Assembly (NCBI RefSeq): GCF_027213965.1
Contig: NZ_JAPWGX010000003.1
Location: forward strand, 372,001-436,000
DNA length: 64,000 nt
Origin: Maritalea porphyrae
GTDB lineage: Bacteria; Pseudomonadota; Alphaproteobacteria; Rhizobiales; Devosiaceae
Reading direction: 5' to 3'
A program made the translations under genes and the position numbers. Shown piece after piece: positions 57,397-64,000 of this stretch (the first letter of the stretch is position 1; each line of letters begins with the position of its first letter). The notes beneath the pieces were generated by a model that had not been told where the DNA came from, ran no database searches, and saw nothing but the letters and a program-made list of their open reading frames with translations.

Positions 57397-58179
57397 ATGC
57401 GTGAGATTTTGGAAGATGCAGAAGCCCATATTGAAGATGGATATGGCCGTGCGCAAAAACACCAAAAACAACAGTTGGCAAAGCGCTTTTATAAACAAGT
57501 GAGCGTTGGCGCTGTTGAAGGTGGTTTTGGGGTTCTGTTAGACGGGCGTTCAATCAAATCGCCGGGCAAAACGCTGGTGAAAGTGCCAAGCCAGCGGCTT
57601 GCGACATTGCTTGCAGCTGAATGGGATGCGCAGGAAAAAGAGATAGACCCTGCGACCATGCCGTTGACCCGTTTGGTCAATACAACGGTCGAAAAGGGTG
57701 AAGAAACGCTTGATGCAGTGAAGGCGGAGATTGTTAAATTCGCCGGGAACGACTTGCTAACTTACAGAGCGGACACGCCACAAGAACTAGTTGATCTGCA
57801 ATCAAAACATTGGGGCGGGGCGCTTGATGCGTTCACCAGGCGCTATGATGTTTCGTTCAACGTCATTACAGGAGTGATCCACCAAGACCAACCTCCTGAA
57901 GTGCAAGCACGGGTTGGTGAGATTATTGCGCCTTATGGGGTGTTTGGTGCCTTTTGCACAATGTTGATCACGTCGATTACGGGGTCAGCAATTCTTTCAG
58001 TTGGTTTGGCCGAGGGCTTGTTTAGTGCCTCAGAAGTCTTAAAAATCGCCTATGTAGATGAAGACTATCAAGCTAGCCATTGGGGTGAAGATGCGGAGGC
58101 AATGCGTATGCGCGCCTTCAAACGACAAGACTTTGACGCAGCGGTAAAAGTGTTGGAACTGGTCGAAAGAGAACTCTAG
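57397..58179 (+). CDS. ATP12-family F1 ATPase assembly chaperone
   Basis: A 260-residue protein homologous to mitochondrial Atp12, which binds the F1 alpha subunit during assembly. Seen: K-R-F-Y-K-Q-V-S-V and V-L-L-D-G-R-S-I-K-S-P-G-K near the start, E-W-D-A-Q-E, P-L-T-R-L-V-N-T-T and L-L-T-Y-R-A. Found mainly in alphaproteobacteria and mitochondria. Its TAG stop shares the palindrome CTAG with the stop of the opposing folK. Confidence 0.9.
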   Translation: MREILEDAEAHIEDGYGRAQKHQKQQLAKRFYKQVSVGAVEGGFGVLLDGRSIKSPGKTLVKVPSQRLATLLAAEWDAQEKEIDPATMPLTRLVNTTVEKGEETLDAVKAEIVKFAGNDLLTYRADTPQELVDLQSKHWGGALDAFTRRYDVSFNVITGVIHQDQPPEVQARVGEIIAPYGVFGAFCTMLITSITGSAILSVGLAEGLFSASEVLKIAYVDEDYQASHWGEDAEAMRMRAFKRQDFDAAVKVLELVEREL

Positions 58180-58613
58180 GCGTTTGCCTGATTTCTGATC
58201 CACTCAACAACAGATGGTGCGATCTCTTCAAGCGGATCCATCACGAAAGCGCGTTCGTGGGCGTGGGGGTGTGGCACCGTAAGCCGCTCATTATTGATTC
58301 TGGATTGGCCAAAGGCAATCACATCTATGTCGATGAGGCGAGGGCCCCATTTTTCATCGCGCTTGCGGCCCATCGCTTGTTCAATCATCAAGCACGAATC
58401 GAGCAAGTCGATTGGGCCTAGAGCTGTTTCTACTTCAATGGCCATATTGAGAAATGGATCTTGGTCGGTTTTACCCCAAGGGTCCGTTTCGATGATGCGA
58501 GATTTGCGGGTGATGTGTACGTCAGGGTGAGCGTCTAGTCGGCGCAACGCCTCTAGTAATTGTGCACGAGGGCGGCCAATATTTGCTCCAAGTCCAAGCC
58601 AAGCTTTTCCCAT
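58176..58613 (-). CDS. folK: 2-amino-4-hydroxy-6-hydroxymethyldihydropteridine diphosphokinase
   Basis: A 145-residue pyrophosphokinase that activates the pterin for FolP. L-G-L-G-A-N-I-G opens it; T-D-P-W-G-K-T-D-Q-D-P-F-L-N and W-G-P-R-L-I-D-I-D-V-I hold the pterin and Mg-ATP. Its ATG overlaps the folB stop by one base. It is the last gene of the minus-strand folate operon and meets the ATP12 gene tail to tail. Confidence 0.93.
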   Translation of the reverse strand: MGKAWLGLGANIGRPRAQLLEALRRLDAHPDVHITRKSRIIETDPWGKTDQDPFLNMAIEVETALGPIDLLDSCLMIEQAMGRKRDEKWGPRLIDIDVIAFGQSRINNERLTVPHPHAHERAFVMDPLEEIAPSVVEWIRNQANA

Positions 58614-59002
58614 TACTTTGTCTCCCGATCTCGAACCAATTCTATTGCGAATTCACCAGTTACAACGGGAATCGGTGCTTCTGGTTTGCGCACACGTACT
58701 CTGACCCATTCAATCGTCTCAAACGTGTCGAACAAGCCATCAATCAAATGCTGCCCAAGCGCTTCGATAAGCTTGAAACGTGTTTGGGTAACACGCTCGT
58801 TGACCAAGTTGAAAATCTGGTCGTATGAAATTGTGTCTTCCACATCGTCCGTTAGGCCCGGTTTGGACAGGTCCACACCGCACTCCAGATCAATGCGAAA
58901 ACGCTGCCCGAGGGCATTTTCTTCCTGCATGACGCCGTGGTAGCCATAAAAAGCTAAGTCAGCGAGCACGATTTTGTCTTCAGTCCGATTTGTCTTTGGC
59001 AT
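58613..59002 (-). CDS. folB: Dihydroneopterin aldolase
   Basis: A 129-residue tunnelling-fold enzyme that cuts dihydroneopterin to 6-hydroxymethyl-dihydropterin. Y-G-Y-H-G-V-M-Q-E-E-N with the catalytic Glu/Tyr area and L-I-E-A-L-G-Q-H-L are conserved. I use the ATG; a TTG just before it abuts the folP stop. It feeds folK, which overlaps it. Confidence 0.92.
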   Translation of the reverse strand: MPKTNRTEDKIVLADLAFYGYHGVMQEENALGQRFRIDLECGVDLSKPGLTDDVEDTISYDQIFNLVNERVTQTRFKLIEALGQHLIDGLFDTFETIEWVRVRVRKPEAPIPVVTGEFAIELVRDRETK

Positions 59003-59005
59003 CAA

Positions 59006-59857
59006 TTATATTTCCCGAGCGGGTGGAGGGCTGTAATAGGTTGCGTGTGCAACTTGCAAAGCGTCATAGTTCTCGCGAACATCGTGCACACGAAATATAT
59101 GCGCGCCCTGCGTGTATGCTAGTACCGTGGTTGCCCCCGTTGCCGCAACCCGTTCTTTAGGCTCAACCCCCAACAGTTTCCCAAGGGTCGATTTGCGCGA
59201 GAATCCAATAAGGATAGGGTACCCTAGTTCAACCAATTCGTCGATGCGACCAAGAAGCGTGAAGTTCTCTTCGTAGGTTTTTGCAAATCCAAACCCTGGA
59301 TCAAGCACTATTTGAGATTTGGATAGTCCCGCATATTCAGCAATTTGAATGCTTTTGTCAAAGTATCGCTTTAGTTCTGAAACAATGTCTTTTTGTGTGT
59401 CGCGGTCTTCGTCCCAATGCATGAGAATAGATGGGATATTGTAGTGCGCGGCAACATCGGCAAGTTCTGGGTCCCGTTGAAAACCCCAAACATCATTGAT
59501 GATTGAGGCACCAGCCTGAATGGCTTGGTGACCAACGATTGCTTTGTATGTATCGATTGAAACGGGCTTATTGATTCTGGCTTCCGCCAAAGCGTCAAGC
59601 ACCGGCATGATCCGGTCTAGTTCGGCCTGTGCGCCGACTTCCTTGGCTCCGGGGCGGGTGCTTTCGCCACCAACATCGATGATGTCAGCACCTTCGCTTA
59701 TCATTTGTTTGGCCTGACCAACAGCGTCTGCGGCAGCACTATGCTCGCCGCCGTCAGAAAAGCTATCAGGCGTGACATTTAATATGCCCATAACCAACGG
59801 TTTTGGGCCAAGCTCCAAGGTCTTATCGCCCATTTTCAGGGAGAAAGCCTTATGCAT
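59006..59857 (-). CDS. folP: Dihydropteroate synthase
   Basis: A 283-residue TIM-barrel enzyme that joins the activated pterin to p-aminobenzoate, the sulfonamide target. [14 protein letters not shown] and G-G-E-S-T-R-P-G-A are the pterin and pABA loops and look normal. It overlaps rimO by eight bases and precedes folB by three. Its pABA would come from pabB/pabC at 20784-22498. Confidence 0.95.
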
Positions 59858-61199
59858 CTTTGTTTGCTTGTTGGGCTACATCAGCCGGGGTGCCATACAA
59901 GTCATATTCGTCAGAATCATTGATCGTGACTTTGACCATATCGCCGGGCTTGATGTTAATTGCGTCGTCAATAAACACTTGCCCATCGATTTCTGGTGCA
60001 TCCCATTGGCTGCGGCCCAGAGCACGGTCGTCTTCTGGTGAAACATCATCAACCAGCACGTCGATTGTTCGGCCAACCTTTTTGCTGAGGCGATCAATTG
60101 AAATGGCCTGGGCTTTTTCCATCAAACGGCCATAGCGTTCTTGTTTGATCTCGTCGGGCACTGCGCCTTCAAGTTCATTGGCCGGCGCACCAGTCACAGG
60201 TTCATATGTGAAAGCACCAACGCGGTCGATTTGTGTTTCATCAAGCCAATCAAGAAGTTGCTGGAAGTCGTCTTCAGTTTCACCAGGGAAGCCAACAATG
60301 AATGTCGAGCGAATTGCCAAATCAGGGCATATGTCGCGCCACGCTTTGATGCGATCAGCGGTTTTGACTTGGTTTGCGGGTCGGCGCATGGCTTTGAGCA
60401 CATTTGGCGCCGCGTGCTGAAATGGAATATCAAGGTAAGGCAGAATTTTGCCTTCAGCCATCAGGTGGATCGATTTGTCCACATGCGGGTAGGGGTAGAC
60501 ATAGTGCATGCGGATCCATGCGTCCATATCGCCCAATTCGCGGGCCAAATCATAAAAACGCGCATCAACGTCGCGCTTATGAAAGCGTGAAGAGGCATAT
60601 TTGATATCTTGGCCGTATGCGCTTGTGTCTTGAGAGATCACCATGATCTCCTTAACACCGGCTTTGACCAAACGTTCTGCTTCATAAAGTACGCTTGCGA
60701 TTGGACGCGACTGCAAATCACCTCGAATGGCTGGGATAATGCAGAAAGTGCAACGGTTTGAGCAGCCTTCAGAAATCTTCAAGTAGGCATAATGGCGTGG
60801 CGTTAGGCGCAAGCCGTCCTCGGGCACAAGTGTTTCAAATGGCTTGTGAACCGGCGGCACATTTTCGTGCACTGCGTTTACAACAGCCTCATATTGATGA
60901 GGGCCAGACACTGCCAAAACATTTGGATGGGTATCACGGATCAACTGCTCTTCAGTACCCAGACAACCGGTCACAATAACCTTGCCATTTTCTTTGATGG
61001 CTTCGCCGATTGCCTCTAGGCTTTCAGCTTTGGCGCTGTCCAAGAACCCACACGTGTTTACGATGACAACGTCTGCGCCCTCGTAGTCACGCGAAAAATT
61101 ATAGCCTTGCGCACGCAGGGTGGTCAAAATGCGTTCAGAGTCGACAAGCGCTTTTGGGCAGCCGAGGCTGACAAGTCCGATGGTTGGGTTCTGGTTCAT
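59850..61199 (-). CDS. rimO: Ribosomal protein S12 (aspartate) methylthiotransferase RimO
   Basis: A 449-residue radical-SAM enzyme with an N-terminal UPF0004 domain, the SAM cluster motif C-S-N-R-C-T-F-C (C-x3-C-x2-C) and a C-terminal TRAM domain. It adds a methylthio group to the beta carbon of an S12 aspartate (Asp89 counting Met). That residue is present in the rpsL product here, though beside an unusual Arg88. First in the order rimO-folP-folB-folK, with overlaps. Confidence 0.94.
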
Positions 61200-61253: not shown

Positions 61254-64000
61254 TCAAGCAAAGTCGGCAAACACTGCGTCCAACGTATCGCATAAGAAGT
61301 CCGCATTTTCTTTGCTGAACACCATGGGAGGCTTGAATTTCAACACGTTTTCAAGCGGCCCGTCGGTTGAAAGCAATATTGCGCGTTCGCGCATTTCATT
61401 TACGATTTGGCCAGCAAGATCAGTTGCCGGTTCCAGTGTTTCGCGGTCTTTCACCAGCTCAATGCCCAAGAACAATCCGTGCCCGCGCACATCGCCAACA
61501 AATTCGTATTTGTCTTTGCAGGTTTGCCAGCGGTTCAGGATATAGGCACCCAATTCTTTGGCGTGGCTTTGCATGTTTTCATTTTCAATCACATCCATTA
61601 CCGCCAACCCGACTGCCATTGAGACTGGGTTGCCGCCGAAGGAGTTGAAATACTCCATGCCATTTGCAAAGCTCGTCGCGAGTTCTTTTGTGGTTACCAC
61701 GGCAGCTAGCGGGTGCCCGTTGCCGATGGGTTTGCCCATCACCACAATGTCGGGCACCACGTCTTGTAACTCAAAACCCCAGAAATGATCGCCAACACGG
61801 CCAAAACCACATTGCACTTCGTCGGCGACGCATATACCGCCTTCTGCCCTGATCGCTGCATAAGCTGCTTGCAAATAGCCTTTAGGGTAAGCGATTTGCC
61901 CGCCAACGCCAGATATTGATTCCGCGATGAAGGTTGCGGCCCCATTTCCGGTTTTACTTTTGATGTTTCCAACGCATTCTGCGACAGACTGGGCGTAGGC
62001 TTTGCCTGAGTTTTCAGAATAGCCTTTGTGCGGCCCGCGATATGGGTCGGGAAAGTCAGCTATTTCAACAAAATCTGGTTGTGGGAAACCGCCTTTGCGC
62101 TTGAACTTATAGGGGCTGATGTCCACAGCACCCTGAGAGTTGCCATGGTATGCCCAATCGAGCACCACCGTGTTCTTTTGGCCGGTGGCGTGGCGCGCTA
62201 TGCGTAGCGCCAATTCGTTTGCCTCGGTGCCCGAGTTAACGAAAAACGCAACGGACAATGGATCGGGGAGCTTTGACGTAATGCGCTCAGCATAGTCCAG
62301 CACCAACTCATTCAAATAGCGCGTGTTGGTGTTCAAAATGGCGGCTTGTTTGCTGATCGCCTGCACAAGATGAGGGTGACAGTGGCCAATGTGGGTGATG
62401 TTGTTGACACAATCTAAGTAGGCGCGGCCCGTTTCATCAAAAAGATGCACGCCATCGCCGCGCACGATTTTTAGTTTGTTTTTGTATGACACACTGAGGG
62501 ATGGACCGAGCAATTTCGCCCGCCGTTCCATCATTTGTGCCGAATCTTGATTGTCAATCTGATAGGTTTCTGGTGCTTGGCCGAGCATTAGGTCTGGGTC
62601 AATGCAGATTTGGTTCCAAACGTGCCAGAGGCTTTTGTGGCCAACGCCATAAAAGTTTTCCTTGTGGCCGAGCATATCGGTCATGATTTGGAAATGCAGG
62701 TGGGGCGACCAGCCGCCATTTACATCCCAATCGCCAATGTGCCCAATAAGTTGACCAGCTTCAATTTTGTCACCTTCTTTATGCAACTCAAATATCGAAG
62801 GCGAGAGGTGACCATAAAGGGAATAGAACGGCGTGCCGTCGTCTGTTTTGTGCTGCAAGATCAAGGTGGGACCATAATCAAGGTGAATGGCGTTGTCGTG
62901 GACAGTGTAAACGGTGCCAGCGATCGGCGCGTAAAGCGGCTCGTCAGCGTCAACAAATACATCTAGTCCCATATGCATGGTGCGGCGTTCTGGTGACGCT
63001 GGAGATGCAAATGCGGCTGTTTGGTAGACAGTTCGGTCTTCACCGTAGCGCCCAATTCCATATCGCGTGTTCAGTTGCGCACGTTTGGCGTTGAACCATC
63101 CGTCAAACTCTTCAGCTGACAGATCCGGTACTCTAGGATCGCTGCCATCGGCAGGAATGACAAAGCGACGTTGATATTTGAAATCTGGCAAAAACATTGG
63201 GCAAAGGTTTTTGCGGTTCGCTTTTAAGAAAGCAGTGACTTCCTTACCGCCTTTTACAGCTTCAAAGCCTGCCGCATCGCGGAATAGTGCGGTCATGAAA
63301 CCAACATCAACGCTTTCAAGCCTCTTGAGCAATTCAAAGGCAGGTTGTTGCGAGATTTTGAGGTATTCATTGTCCGGGTATTTTTTGGCTTGGTGCGAAG
63401 ACATGCAAACGCTGGAAACGAGCCGCATGCGCGCCAGGTCGAACAAAACTTCCAGCTCTTGCTCTGTTAAGGCAAAAGCGCTTGTGTAGCCGCGCACAAG
63501 GGCGTGGGCGGCTGTGTAGATGTCTTCTTGGCCCAGCAACGCATATGCCATGCAAACGGCGAGCTCGTTTATTTGGCGGCCAAAGCACATATCGCCAAAA
63601 TCAAACACACCTTTGATTTGTGATGCGTCATTTGGGTCGACAATAATGTTGTTGTCATTTGCATCTTGATAAAGCACCGCATTGCGCAGGTTGATAAGCT
63701 TGGGCTGAATGAGCGTTTCATAACGCTCGAAAAGCGCATTAACGCGTTGTGCATTGTCATGATTTTCGATGTCCGCACACATGGTTTTAAGCGCGAGAAC
63801 ATTGTCTAAGTTCCACTCAAAATTCGGACGGTTGGCGGCTGGATGTGAAAAACCTTGCAACGACGCTGACAATTGACCAATGGTGCTACCAAGGTTTGTA
63901 AGCGCTTGAGTTGAAGGAATTTGTGCGCTCAAGAGGGGACCATTGATGAAGGAAATGAGCCGGATCGCATGTCGCTGGCCGTTCAATTCAACGGTGAAAA
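61254..64000 (-). CDS. Kinase / M23 peptidase / class III PLP enzyme fusion (partial)
   Basis: At least 914 residues; the 5' end runs off the window. Counting from the first in-frame TTG at 63986: a phosphotransferase (APH/hydroxylysine-kinase-like) part to about 260 with L-Y-Q-D-A-N-D-N-N and V-F-D-F-G-D; an M23 zinc metallopeptidase-like part about 330-440 with H338-x3-D342 and H429-L-H431; and a class III aminotransferase/phospho-lyase about 480-910 with PLP Lys752 in M-G-K-P-I-G-N-G. Kinase plus lyase suggests an amino alcohol is phosphorylated then eliminated. It probably is not in the rimO transcript (54-bp gap, uncertain). Confidence 0.85.
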   Translation of the reverse strand, partial: FTVELNGQRHAIRLISFINGPLLSAQIPSTQALTNLGSTIGQLSASLQGFSHPAANRPNFEWNLDNVLALKTMCADIENHDNAQRVNALFERYETLIQPKLINLRNAVLYQDANDNNIIVDPNDASQIKGVFDFGDMCFGRQINELAVCMAYALLGQEDIYTAAHALVRGYTSAFALTEQELEVLFDLARMRLVSSVCMSSHQAKKYPDNEYLKISQQPAFELLKRLESVDVGFMTALFRDAAGFEAVKGGKEVTAFLKANRKNLCPMFLPDFKYQRRFVIPADGSDPRVPDLSAEEFDGWFNAKRAQLNTRYGIGRYGEDRTVYQTAAFASPASPERRTMHMGLDVFVDADEPLYAPIAGTVYTVHDNAIHLDYGPTLILQHKTDDGTPFYSLYGHLSPSIFELHKEGDKIEAGQLIGHIGDWDVNGGWSPHLHFQIMTDMLGHKENFYGVGHKSLWHVWNQICIDPDLMLGQAPETYQIDNQDSAQMMERRAKLLGPSLSVSYKNKLKIVRGDGVHLFDETGRAYLDCVNNITHIGHCHPHLVQAISKQAAILNTNTRYLNELVLDYAERITSKLPDPLSVAFFVNSGTEANELALRIARHATGQKNTVVLDWAYHGNSQGAVDISPYKFKRKGGFPQPDFVEIADFPDPYRGPHKGYSENSGKAYAQSVAECVGNIKSKTGNGAATFIAESISGVGGQIAYPKGYLQAAYAAIRAEGGICVADEVQCGFGRVGDHFWGFELQDVVPDIVVMGKPIGNGHPLAAVVTTKELATSFANGMEYFNSFGGNPVSMAVGLAVMDVIENENMQSHAKELGAYILNRWQTCKDKYEFVGDVRGHGLFLGIELVKDRETLEPATDLAGQIVNEMRERAILLSTDGPLENVLKFKPPMVFSKENADFLCDTLDAVFADFA

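Follow-up and report, generated by a model that had tools for sequence, protein, structure and literature searches.

In animals, hydroxylysine kinase (HYKK/AGPHD1) and 5-phosphohydroxylysine phospho-lyase (PHYKPL/AGXT2L2) act in sequence, and the pathway was reportedly worked out by Veiga-da-Cunha in 2012 with bacterial kinase-lyase fusions as a guide; a three-domain form may also figure in that paper. The two animal enzymes are separate proteins and are not known to have a peptidase domain. In contrast, a bacterial protein for which the same two reaction types are proposed in the same sequence is a single fusion chain, encoded in the stretch analysed here, 64,000 nucleotides of the Maritalea porphyrae genome (contig NZ_JAPWGX010000003.1, positions 372,001 to 436,000; hereafter the window). 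From the N- to the C-terminus, this trifunctional protein consists of an APH-type kinase domain, an M23 zinc-peptidase domain and a class-III pyridoxal phosphate (PLP)-dependent phospho-lyase domain, and on balance it is probably a cytosolic enzyme that breaks down collagen-derived 5-hydroxylysine by its kinase and phospho-lyase activities. The architecture is not new, because it is present in the NCBI library and bacterial kinase-lyase fusions were reportedly used in the 2012 work; since its full-length match there, PRK06148, carries only the name 'hypothetical protein', it has been catalogued without a function. What is new is that glycosidase and hydroxyproline genes are linked to it and that its M23 residues are widely conserved; neither point was found in the open-access papers that the search covered. 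The same literature yielded nothing relevant on PRK06148 or on the combination of hydroxylysine kinase, phospholyase and M23 domain, and no bacterial pathway for the glycosylated hydroxylysine of collagen. A 2025 review lists Veiga-da-Cunha 2012 among its gene-fusion references (PMC12138971).

The trifunctional gene lies on the minus strand and, read in the whole source genome of 3.6 Mb, spans 61254-64280 in window coordinates, with 1008 codons and no internal stop. It is truncated by the window edge: the part inside runs from 61254 to 64000, with the reading frame open from the stop codon (61254-61256) to the edge, and the start ATG (64278-64280) lies beyond it. A preliminary description of the window had this frame right but gave a protein of 910 amino acids, which starts 98 residues too late and so misses Lys53 in the N-lobe of the kinase. 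It had also placed three domains on one chain, and Pfam bears this out with matches to APH (residues 37-266, 3e-16), Peptidase_M23 (435-534, 3.4e-15) and Aminotran_3 (602-1003, 1.1e-77), each exceeding the family cut-off; the absence of a kinase or peptidase fold, which it had named as a refutation of its proposal, was thus not what the domain search returned. The codons of Y204, Q205, D206, N211, D227, H436, D440, H491, H527, H529, D820 and K850 were verified. Because no hydrophobic leader is seen on reading residues 1-30 by eye, the protein looks cytosolic.

End to end, the window protein agrees in length and domain order with NF004799 (PRK06148), which it matches at 1231.4 bits against a cut-off of 1128 bits (residues 6-1007 versus positions 5-1010 of the 1015-position model), but its kinase loop carries YQD and not the most frequent variant, HND, which 68 of 142 relatives have. 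Its score against NF004800 (PRK06149), 692.1 bits, is under the cut-off of 973 bits. Two loci that are putative PRK06149 members by their length (L055 and L074) have a kinase, an M23-like remnant and a lyase in the same order as the window protein, but lack the M23 residues that it keeps. A genome of the same genus carries the same organisation, with a protein 85% identical. A chance or artefactual fusion was considered and ruled out: chance, because the full length matches PRK06148 at 1231 bits, and an assembly artefact, because the organisation recurs in the same-genus genome and in relatives assigned to many phyla by their record titles. The family search for this domain order and the structure prediction, both suggested in the preliminary description as checks, thus gave a full-length family match shared by relatives and an AlphaFold model (from 22 sequences; predicted local distance difference test (pLDDT) 86.4, predicted template modelling score (pTM) 0.70) whose closest structural match is a phospho-lyase.

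Indeed, the best Foldseek match of this full-length model is human ETNPPL (6tor; TM-score 0.93, 49% identity), and the second is Arthrobacter aurescens A1RDF1 (5g4i; 38% identity), racemases and transaminases ranking behind among the matches listed. Both enzymes share the fold of the C-terminal domain of the window protein and are single-domain, unlike the three-domain chain, and both act on phosphoethanolamine. The lyase domain (residues 580-1008; 61257-62543, minus strand) was delimited from Pfam Aminotran_3 and its likeness to ETNPPL. It keeps the PLP-binding Lys850 (61731-61733) in 142 of 142 relatives and the PLP-site Asp820 (61821-61823) in 141, with Glu in one; these are the residues numbered Lys752 and Asp722 in the preliminary description, whose statement that the PLP and M23 residues are kept stands. 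A sequence search of solved structures gave 468 and 332 bits for two phospho-lyases against 197 for the best other protein among the matches listed. With solved phospho-lyases nearer than transaminases and the PLP lysine kept, lyase rather than transaminase chemistry is highly probable.

The kinase domain (residues 1-355, of which 95-355 are wholly in the window; 63216-64000, minus strand) was delimited from Pfam, AlphaFold and Foldseek. A model of residues 1-580 (80 sequences; pLDDT 95.6, pTM 0.93) has homoserine kinase as its best Foldseek match (E 4e-14); amicoumacin kinase and further kinases of the APH fold are also among its best matches, and an aminopropanol kinase ranks 11th. Conservation was read from an alignment of 142 relatives, 137 with three domains and five with a decayed M23 domain, a few of which end at contig edges; they were collected by similarity to the whole-family model or by lyase-located patterns, never by the M23 residues alone, and are not a random sample. 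Asp206 and Asn211 of the catalytic loop (Y204-Q-D206-A-N-D-N-N211; 63648-63671, minus strand) and the metal-binding Asp227 of DFGD (63600-63602) are kept in 142 of 142, and Lys53 in all 99 relatives with a letter at that position. The fold, the Lys, the catalytic Asp, the Asn and the metal Asp of an APH-type small-molecule kinase are thus all present. PKA and other active protein kinases carry Tyr at the loop position matching 204. Since this Tyr is found in 19 of the 142 relatives (14 YND, 2 YQD, 2 YGD and 1 YYD), the YQD loop is, to judge from the alignment, a family variant and not a lesion; a kinase killed by Tyr204 was rejected on these counts, and the altered catalysis suspected from the loop in the preliminary description is not borne out.

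Between these domains, the M23 module (residues 389-575; 62556-63116, minus strand) scores 56.4 bits against Peptidase_M23 (PF01551; cut-off 28.7) and has weak sequence matches to M23 peptidases including lysostaphin and LytM. Its HxxxD motif (H436 and D440; 62961-62975), His491 (62808-62810) and HxH motif (H527 and H529; 62694-62702), all on the minus strand, correspond to the zinc and catalytic residues of M23 metallopeptidases, and the five residues are complete in 137 of 142 relatives, the other five forming one clade of decayed paralogs. The pTM of the model of residues 1-580 indicates that kinase and M23 domain are placed confidently relative to each other. A kinase-free M23-lyase gene also exists, and in three of three genomes only a few genes separate it from an ATP-binding cassette (ABC) transporter of the oligopeptide type (hidden Markov model check in L215 only). 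The residue after hydroxylysine in collagen is glycine, and M23 enzymes are often glycine-directed; from these facts and the transporter we infer a peptidase step, in which the M23 domain might free hydroxylysine from small peptides, a tentative assignment and a somewhat doubtful one. If true, the M23 fold would here serve metabolism in the cytosol, which is unusual for it.

Among animal proteins collagen is very abundant, and the glycosylated hydroxylysine that it contains has an unusual chemistry. According to three papers, the collagen O-glycan is galactose (Gal) beta-linked to hydroxylysine (Hyl), with or without an alpha1,2-linked glucose (Glc), and the glucose is removed in animals by an alpha-glucosidase of glycoside hydrolase (GH) family 65, PGGHG (PMC11012932; PMC8626586; PMC8537180). 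Enzymes suited to the same disaccharide unit are encoded beside some of the three-domain genes. Among 140 three-domain loci, an MGH1/GH63-type alpha-glucosidase lies near 9, a beta-galactosidase (GH1, GH2 or GH42) near 13, both near 8, a gene of the hydroxyproline epimerase family near 12, and at least one of these collagen-fitting neighbours at 25. L044 and L083 share one 449,544-base contig, so that the count holds at least one duplicate; it also takes in some short contigs, and it leaves out L022, the 20th order-level locus, and the five decayed forms.

The glycosidase link is seen in Alphaproteobacteria. In three loci (L077, L078 and L079), an MGH1-like GH lies immediately upstream of the three-domain gene, and the downstream side holds genes for an amino-acid binding protein, a GH1 beta-glycosidase and an amino-acid permease together with a LacI-type gene; in L079 the alpha-glucosidase was identified by whole-genome search and tblastn, and the GH1 enzyme scores 557 bits against a cut-off of 478. 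A longer run in Sinorhizobium meliloti (CP050561.1) comprises a LacI-like gene, an amino-acid ABC binding protein and permease, an SDR gene and the three-domain gene, then UgpC, a sugar binding protein, two sugar permeases and an MGH1-like GH, and finally a LacI-like gene, a GH42 beta-galactosidase and a beta-lactamase-family serine hydrolase. Most of these parts are shared by two Ensifer loci (L115 and L121), whose cluster holds the sole MGH1-like GH and the sole GH42 of each genome, and in L076 the sole GH42 of the genome is directly downstream of the three-domain gene. In the tree, the window protein groups with L046 and L076-L079 (support 100/99), and of these L076-L079 have glycosidase neighbours. 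In 7 of the 20 three-domain loci of the order, the gene adjoins a divergently oriented member of one gene cluster, and the member scanned is Lrp/AsnC-like below the cut-offs; 5 of the 20 have an ABC binding protein downstream; the best match of the two that were scanned is the NCBIfam Lys/Arg/Orn model, below its cut-off.

In Bacteroidota, some loci have glycosidase genes, hydroxyproline genes or both. L116 has a YgjK/GH63-like enzyme before the three-domain gene and a GH2 LacZ-type enzyme after it, a pair also present in L180, which comes from a sample of 40 loci drawn regardless of neighbours. In L123, a GH63-like enzyme follows the gene, and a gene resembling trans-3-hydroxyproline dehydratase (391 bits, short of the cut-off of 540) and a pyrroline-2-carboxylate reductase (372 bits, over 322) precede it; within three genes stand the sole MGH1-like GH and the sole proline-racemase-family gene of that genome. 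L125 and L133 carry a 4-hydroxyproline epimerase (579 and 582 bits; cut-off 376), which is separated from the three-domain gene by a gene like D-amino-acid dehydrogenase. The epimerase is near 9 of the 40 sampled loci, upstream on the same strand in 8; the sample includes three decayed forms, none of them with an epimerase.

The alpha-glucosidase, beta-galactosidase and kinase-lyase, with hydroxyproline genes in some loci, fit Glc-Gal-Hyl better than the other substrates considered, and these neighbours of some relatives favour hydroxylysine over an ethanolamine-type substrate, between which sequence alone does not separate; 5-hydroxylysine is thus a fairly probable substrate. ABC or TonB/SusCD systems would import glycosylated hydroxylysine or small hydroxylysine peptides, from which alpha-glucosidases and beta-galactosidases, as enzymes of their own, would strip the glucose and galactose. 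The M23 domain would cut hydroxylysine out of small peptides, the kinase would phosphorylate its 5-hydroxyl, and the PLP domain would eliminate phosphate and ammonia to leave 2-aminoadipate 6-semialdehyde. The kinase-then-lyase logic of the preliminary description is supported, and its guess at hydroxy-amino-acid degradation, with a peptidase perhaps freeing a peptide-bound substrate, has gained a candidate in collagen hydroxylysine from the neighbours. That the whole would work as a single-chain assembly line for collagen waste in many phyla, the M23 domain clipping glycine-linked hydroxylysine and passing it to the kinase and then the lyase, is unlikely in this full form; if true, an as yet undescribed bacterial route for Glc-Gal-hydroxylysine, served by beta-galactosidases of three families, would end with this enzyme. 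A large family named 'hypothetical protein' or 'aminotransferase' would gain a function if the hydroxylysine assignment is true, the adjoining GH63-, GH42-, GH2- and GH1-type enzymes would gain a substrate, and the bacterial use of the sugar-bearing part of collagen would become a testable question.

Ethanolamine or 1-amino-2-propanol could take the place of hydroxylysine, the M23 domain freeing the amino alcohol from an amide; ethanolamine would then be converted to acetaldehyde, ammonia and phosphate. The nearest solved lyase is indeed an ethanolamine-phosphate phospho-lyase, and the kinase fold also matches aminopropanol kinase and ethanolamine kinase. However, the amino-acid binding proteins, hydroxyproline genes and glycosidase pairs of the relatives are unsuited to ethanolamine, and the scanned part of the neighbours holds no ethanolamine-utilisation genes, so that this substrate appears distinctly unlikely. 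Far less probable still is that an ordinary class-III transaminase has been fused to an APH protein unrelated to it, in line with the public annotation as an aminotransferase (plasmid relatives are entered as 'aminotransferase class III-fold pyridoxal phosphate-dependent enzyme'): among the solved structures listed as matches, phospho-lyases come clearly first, and separate kinase and lyase genes lie adjacent in relatives, which suggests one pathway. The cell wall, proposed in the preliminary description as another source of the substrate, was set aside, because no wall-recycling gene set is present among the scanned neighbours of relatives; the sole hint of it comes from a Shinella zoogloeoides plasmid (L159), where D-aminopeptidase, M55 and P1 peptidase genes, which would suit D-amino-acid peptides, lie beyond an Lrp gene.

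Instead of acting as a peptidase, the M23 domain might hold kinase and lyase in position, as a scaffold stabilised by zinc or as a docking domain. A sister clade (5 of 142) has lost the M23 residues and retains a remnant of the domain, so that these residues are dispensable to the protein; the model predicts kinase and M23 domain as one block, and M23-free fusions exist. Nevertheless, five metal and catalytic residues kept in 137 relatives are beyond the need of a scaffold, and a kinase-free M23-lyase near an oligopeptide-type transporter does not suit such a role either; we consider it doubtful, if a serious contender. The comparison with M23-free loci bears on the route as well. Among 27 such loci, in which kinase and lyase are fused or separate genes or the lyase stands alone, 4 have both glycosidases and none an epimerase, and none of the five decayed forms has glycosidases or an epimerase nearby. 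Eight M23-free loci are from Bacteroidota (six kinase-lyase fusions, one with separate genes and one without a visible kinase), and four of them (L206, L208, L209 and L210) lie in operons of the same type with GH63-like and GH42 enzymes; in L206, a Pfam scan gave a TonB-dependent receptor, SusD, GH63-like, GH42 and then kinase-lyase, which looks like a collagen-glycan utilisation locus. M23 is therefore not needed for the glycosidase route, and the idea that glycosidase operons are special to M23-containing forms was rejected.

This last result is one of several that weigh against the assignment to collagen hydroxylysine with an M23 peptidase step; the decayed-M23 clade is another. Neither a glycosidase nor an epimerase-family gene was found by the queries used at 115 of the 140 three-domain loci, and the epimerase-linked loci are not independent, because 6 of the 7 (out of 12) that are in the tree share one clade (100/99), L123 standing elsewhere. 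GH1, GH2 and GH42 are distant kin of clan GH-A, with many members of broad specificity. PGGHG belongs to GH65, and the putative alpha-glucosidases of the bacterial operons are MGH1/GH63-like. The likeness to ETNPPL fits ethanolamine phosphate or phosphohydroxylysine alike, and the human phosphohydroxylysine lyase is not among the 60 that were listed of 195 solved-structure matches. The closest plasmid-borne relative, of Paracoccus seriniphilus (56%), has a branched-chain-type ABC set, an N-formylglutamate amidohydrolase and a glutamine synthetase-family gene as neighbours, and on the Shinella plasmid the Lrp gene adjoins the three-domain gene, with an amino-acid binding protein also near. The window locus itself has no catabolic neighbour and no linked alpha-glucosidase or beta-galactosidase; the glycosidase cluster of the source genome is unlinked to it, and two further GH42s exist there besides that of the cluster.

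By order, the full-length form exceeds the PRK06148 cut-off in 20 of 249 sampled genomes; within the family of the source organism, the gene is in both genomes of the genus and in none of the 8 other genomes sampled, so that its occurrence is patchy. The class sample has 11 of 385 genomes over the cut-off, and the Bacteroidota phylum sample (around L125) 27 of 395. In a class-wide search, a weak result, the S. meliloti-type alpha-glucosidase was found in 1 of 385 genomes, that of the window itself, and the trifunctional gene was counted in 13. By tblastn, 1918 plasmid records have a match, and in 91 of these a single place covers 80% or more of the query. Of 565 confirmed matches in named genomes, the best 80 were taken as loci; by record title they fall in Alpha-, Beta- and Gammaproteobacteria, Desulfobacterota groups, Acidobacteria, Chloroflexi, Gemmatimonadetes, Bacteroidetes, Planctomycetes, Latescibacterota, Actinobacteria, Fimbriimonadia and one Thorarchaeota contig; since most are metagenome-assembled genomes (MAGs), single phylum placements may be binning errors, as is possible for the 4.5-kb contig labelled Thorarchaeota (L153). 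The three-domain form is one of several arrangements: others are M23-free kinase-lyase fusions (about 765-840 aa), kinase and lyase as separate genes next to each other, kinase with decayed M23 and lyase, and M23-lyase without kinase in three genomes of one genus (L214, L215 and L216, near 8.7-11.1 kb), which also carry the three-domain form. In a tree of 82 lyase domains, the labels three-domain, no-M23 and decayed require 5 changes in total, and the decayed forms (L055, L074, L200, L201 and L202) are a single clade (100/100). Near two of these, L055 and L074, there are genes for a peptidase of the DmpA type (S58) and an ABC binding protein of the dipeptide type. In a Desulfohalobiaceae MAG (L086:7268-9205), an aldehyde:ferredoxin oxidoreductase gene stands right after the three-domain gene, which fits an aldehyde product.

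In the window, a DUF4282 gene with lipB lies on the upstream side of the trifunctional gene and rimO-folP-folB-folK on the downstream side (lipB, rimO and fol names by sequence reading); the latter run, at 58176-61199, ends 54 bp from the trifunctional stop codon and is apparently ordinary housekeeping. Elsewhere in the source genome, where a search found no GH1, there are one MGH1-like GH and, 6 kb off, one of three GH42s. They belong to a single-strand run (L211) of a LacI-like gene, the MGH1-like GH, two sugar permeases, a sugar binding protein, UgpC and the GH42, whose proteins are 52-84% identical to their counterparts in the S. meliloti cluster; the same set is present in the same-genus genome. 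Some 30 kb beyond it on the same contig, a hydroxyproline cluster (L213) holds an epimerase (65% to that of L125), a D-amino-acid dehydrogenase-like gene, an aldehyde dehydrogenase, a DHDPS-family gene and polar-amino-acid ABC-like genes. The source genome thus holds the glycosidase and sugar-transporter half of the set and the hydroxyproline parts, both unlinked to the window gene.

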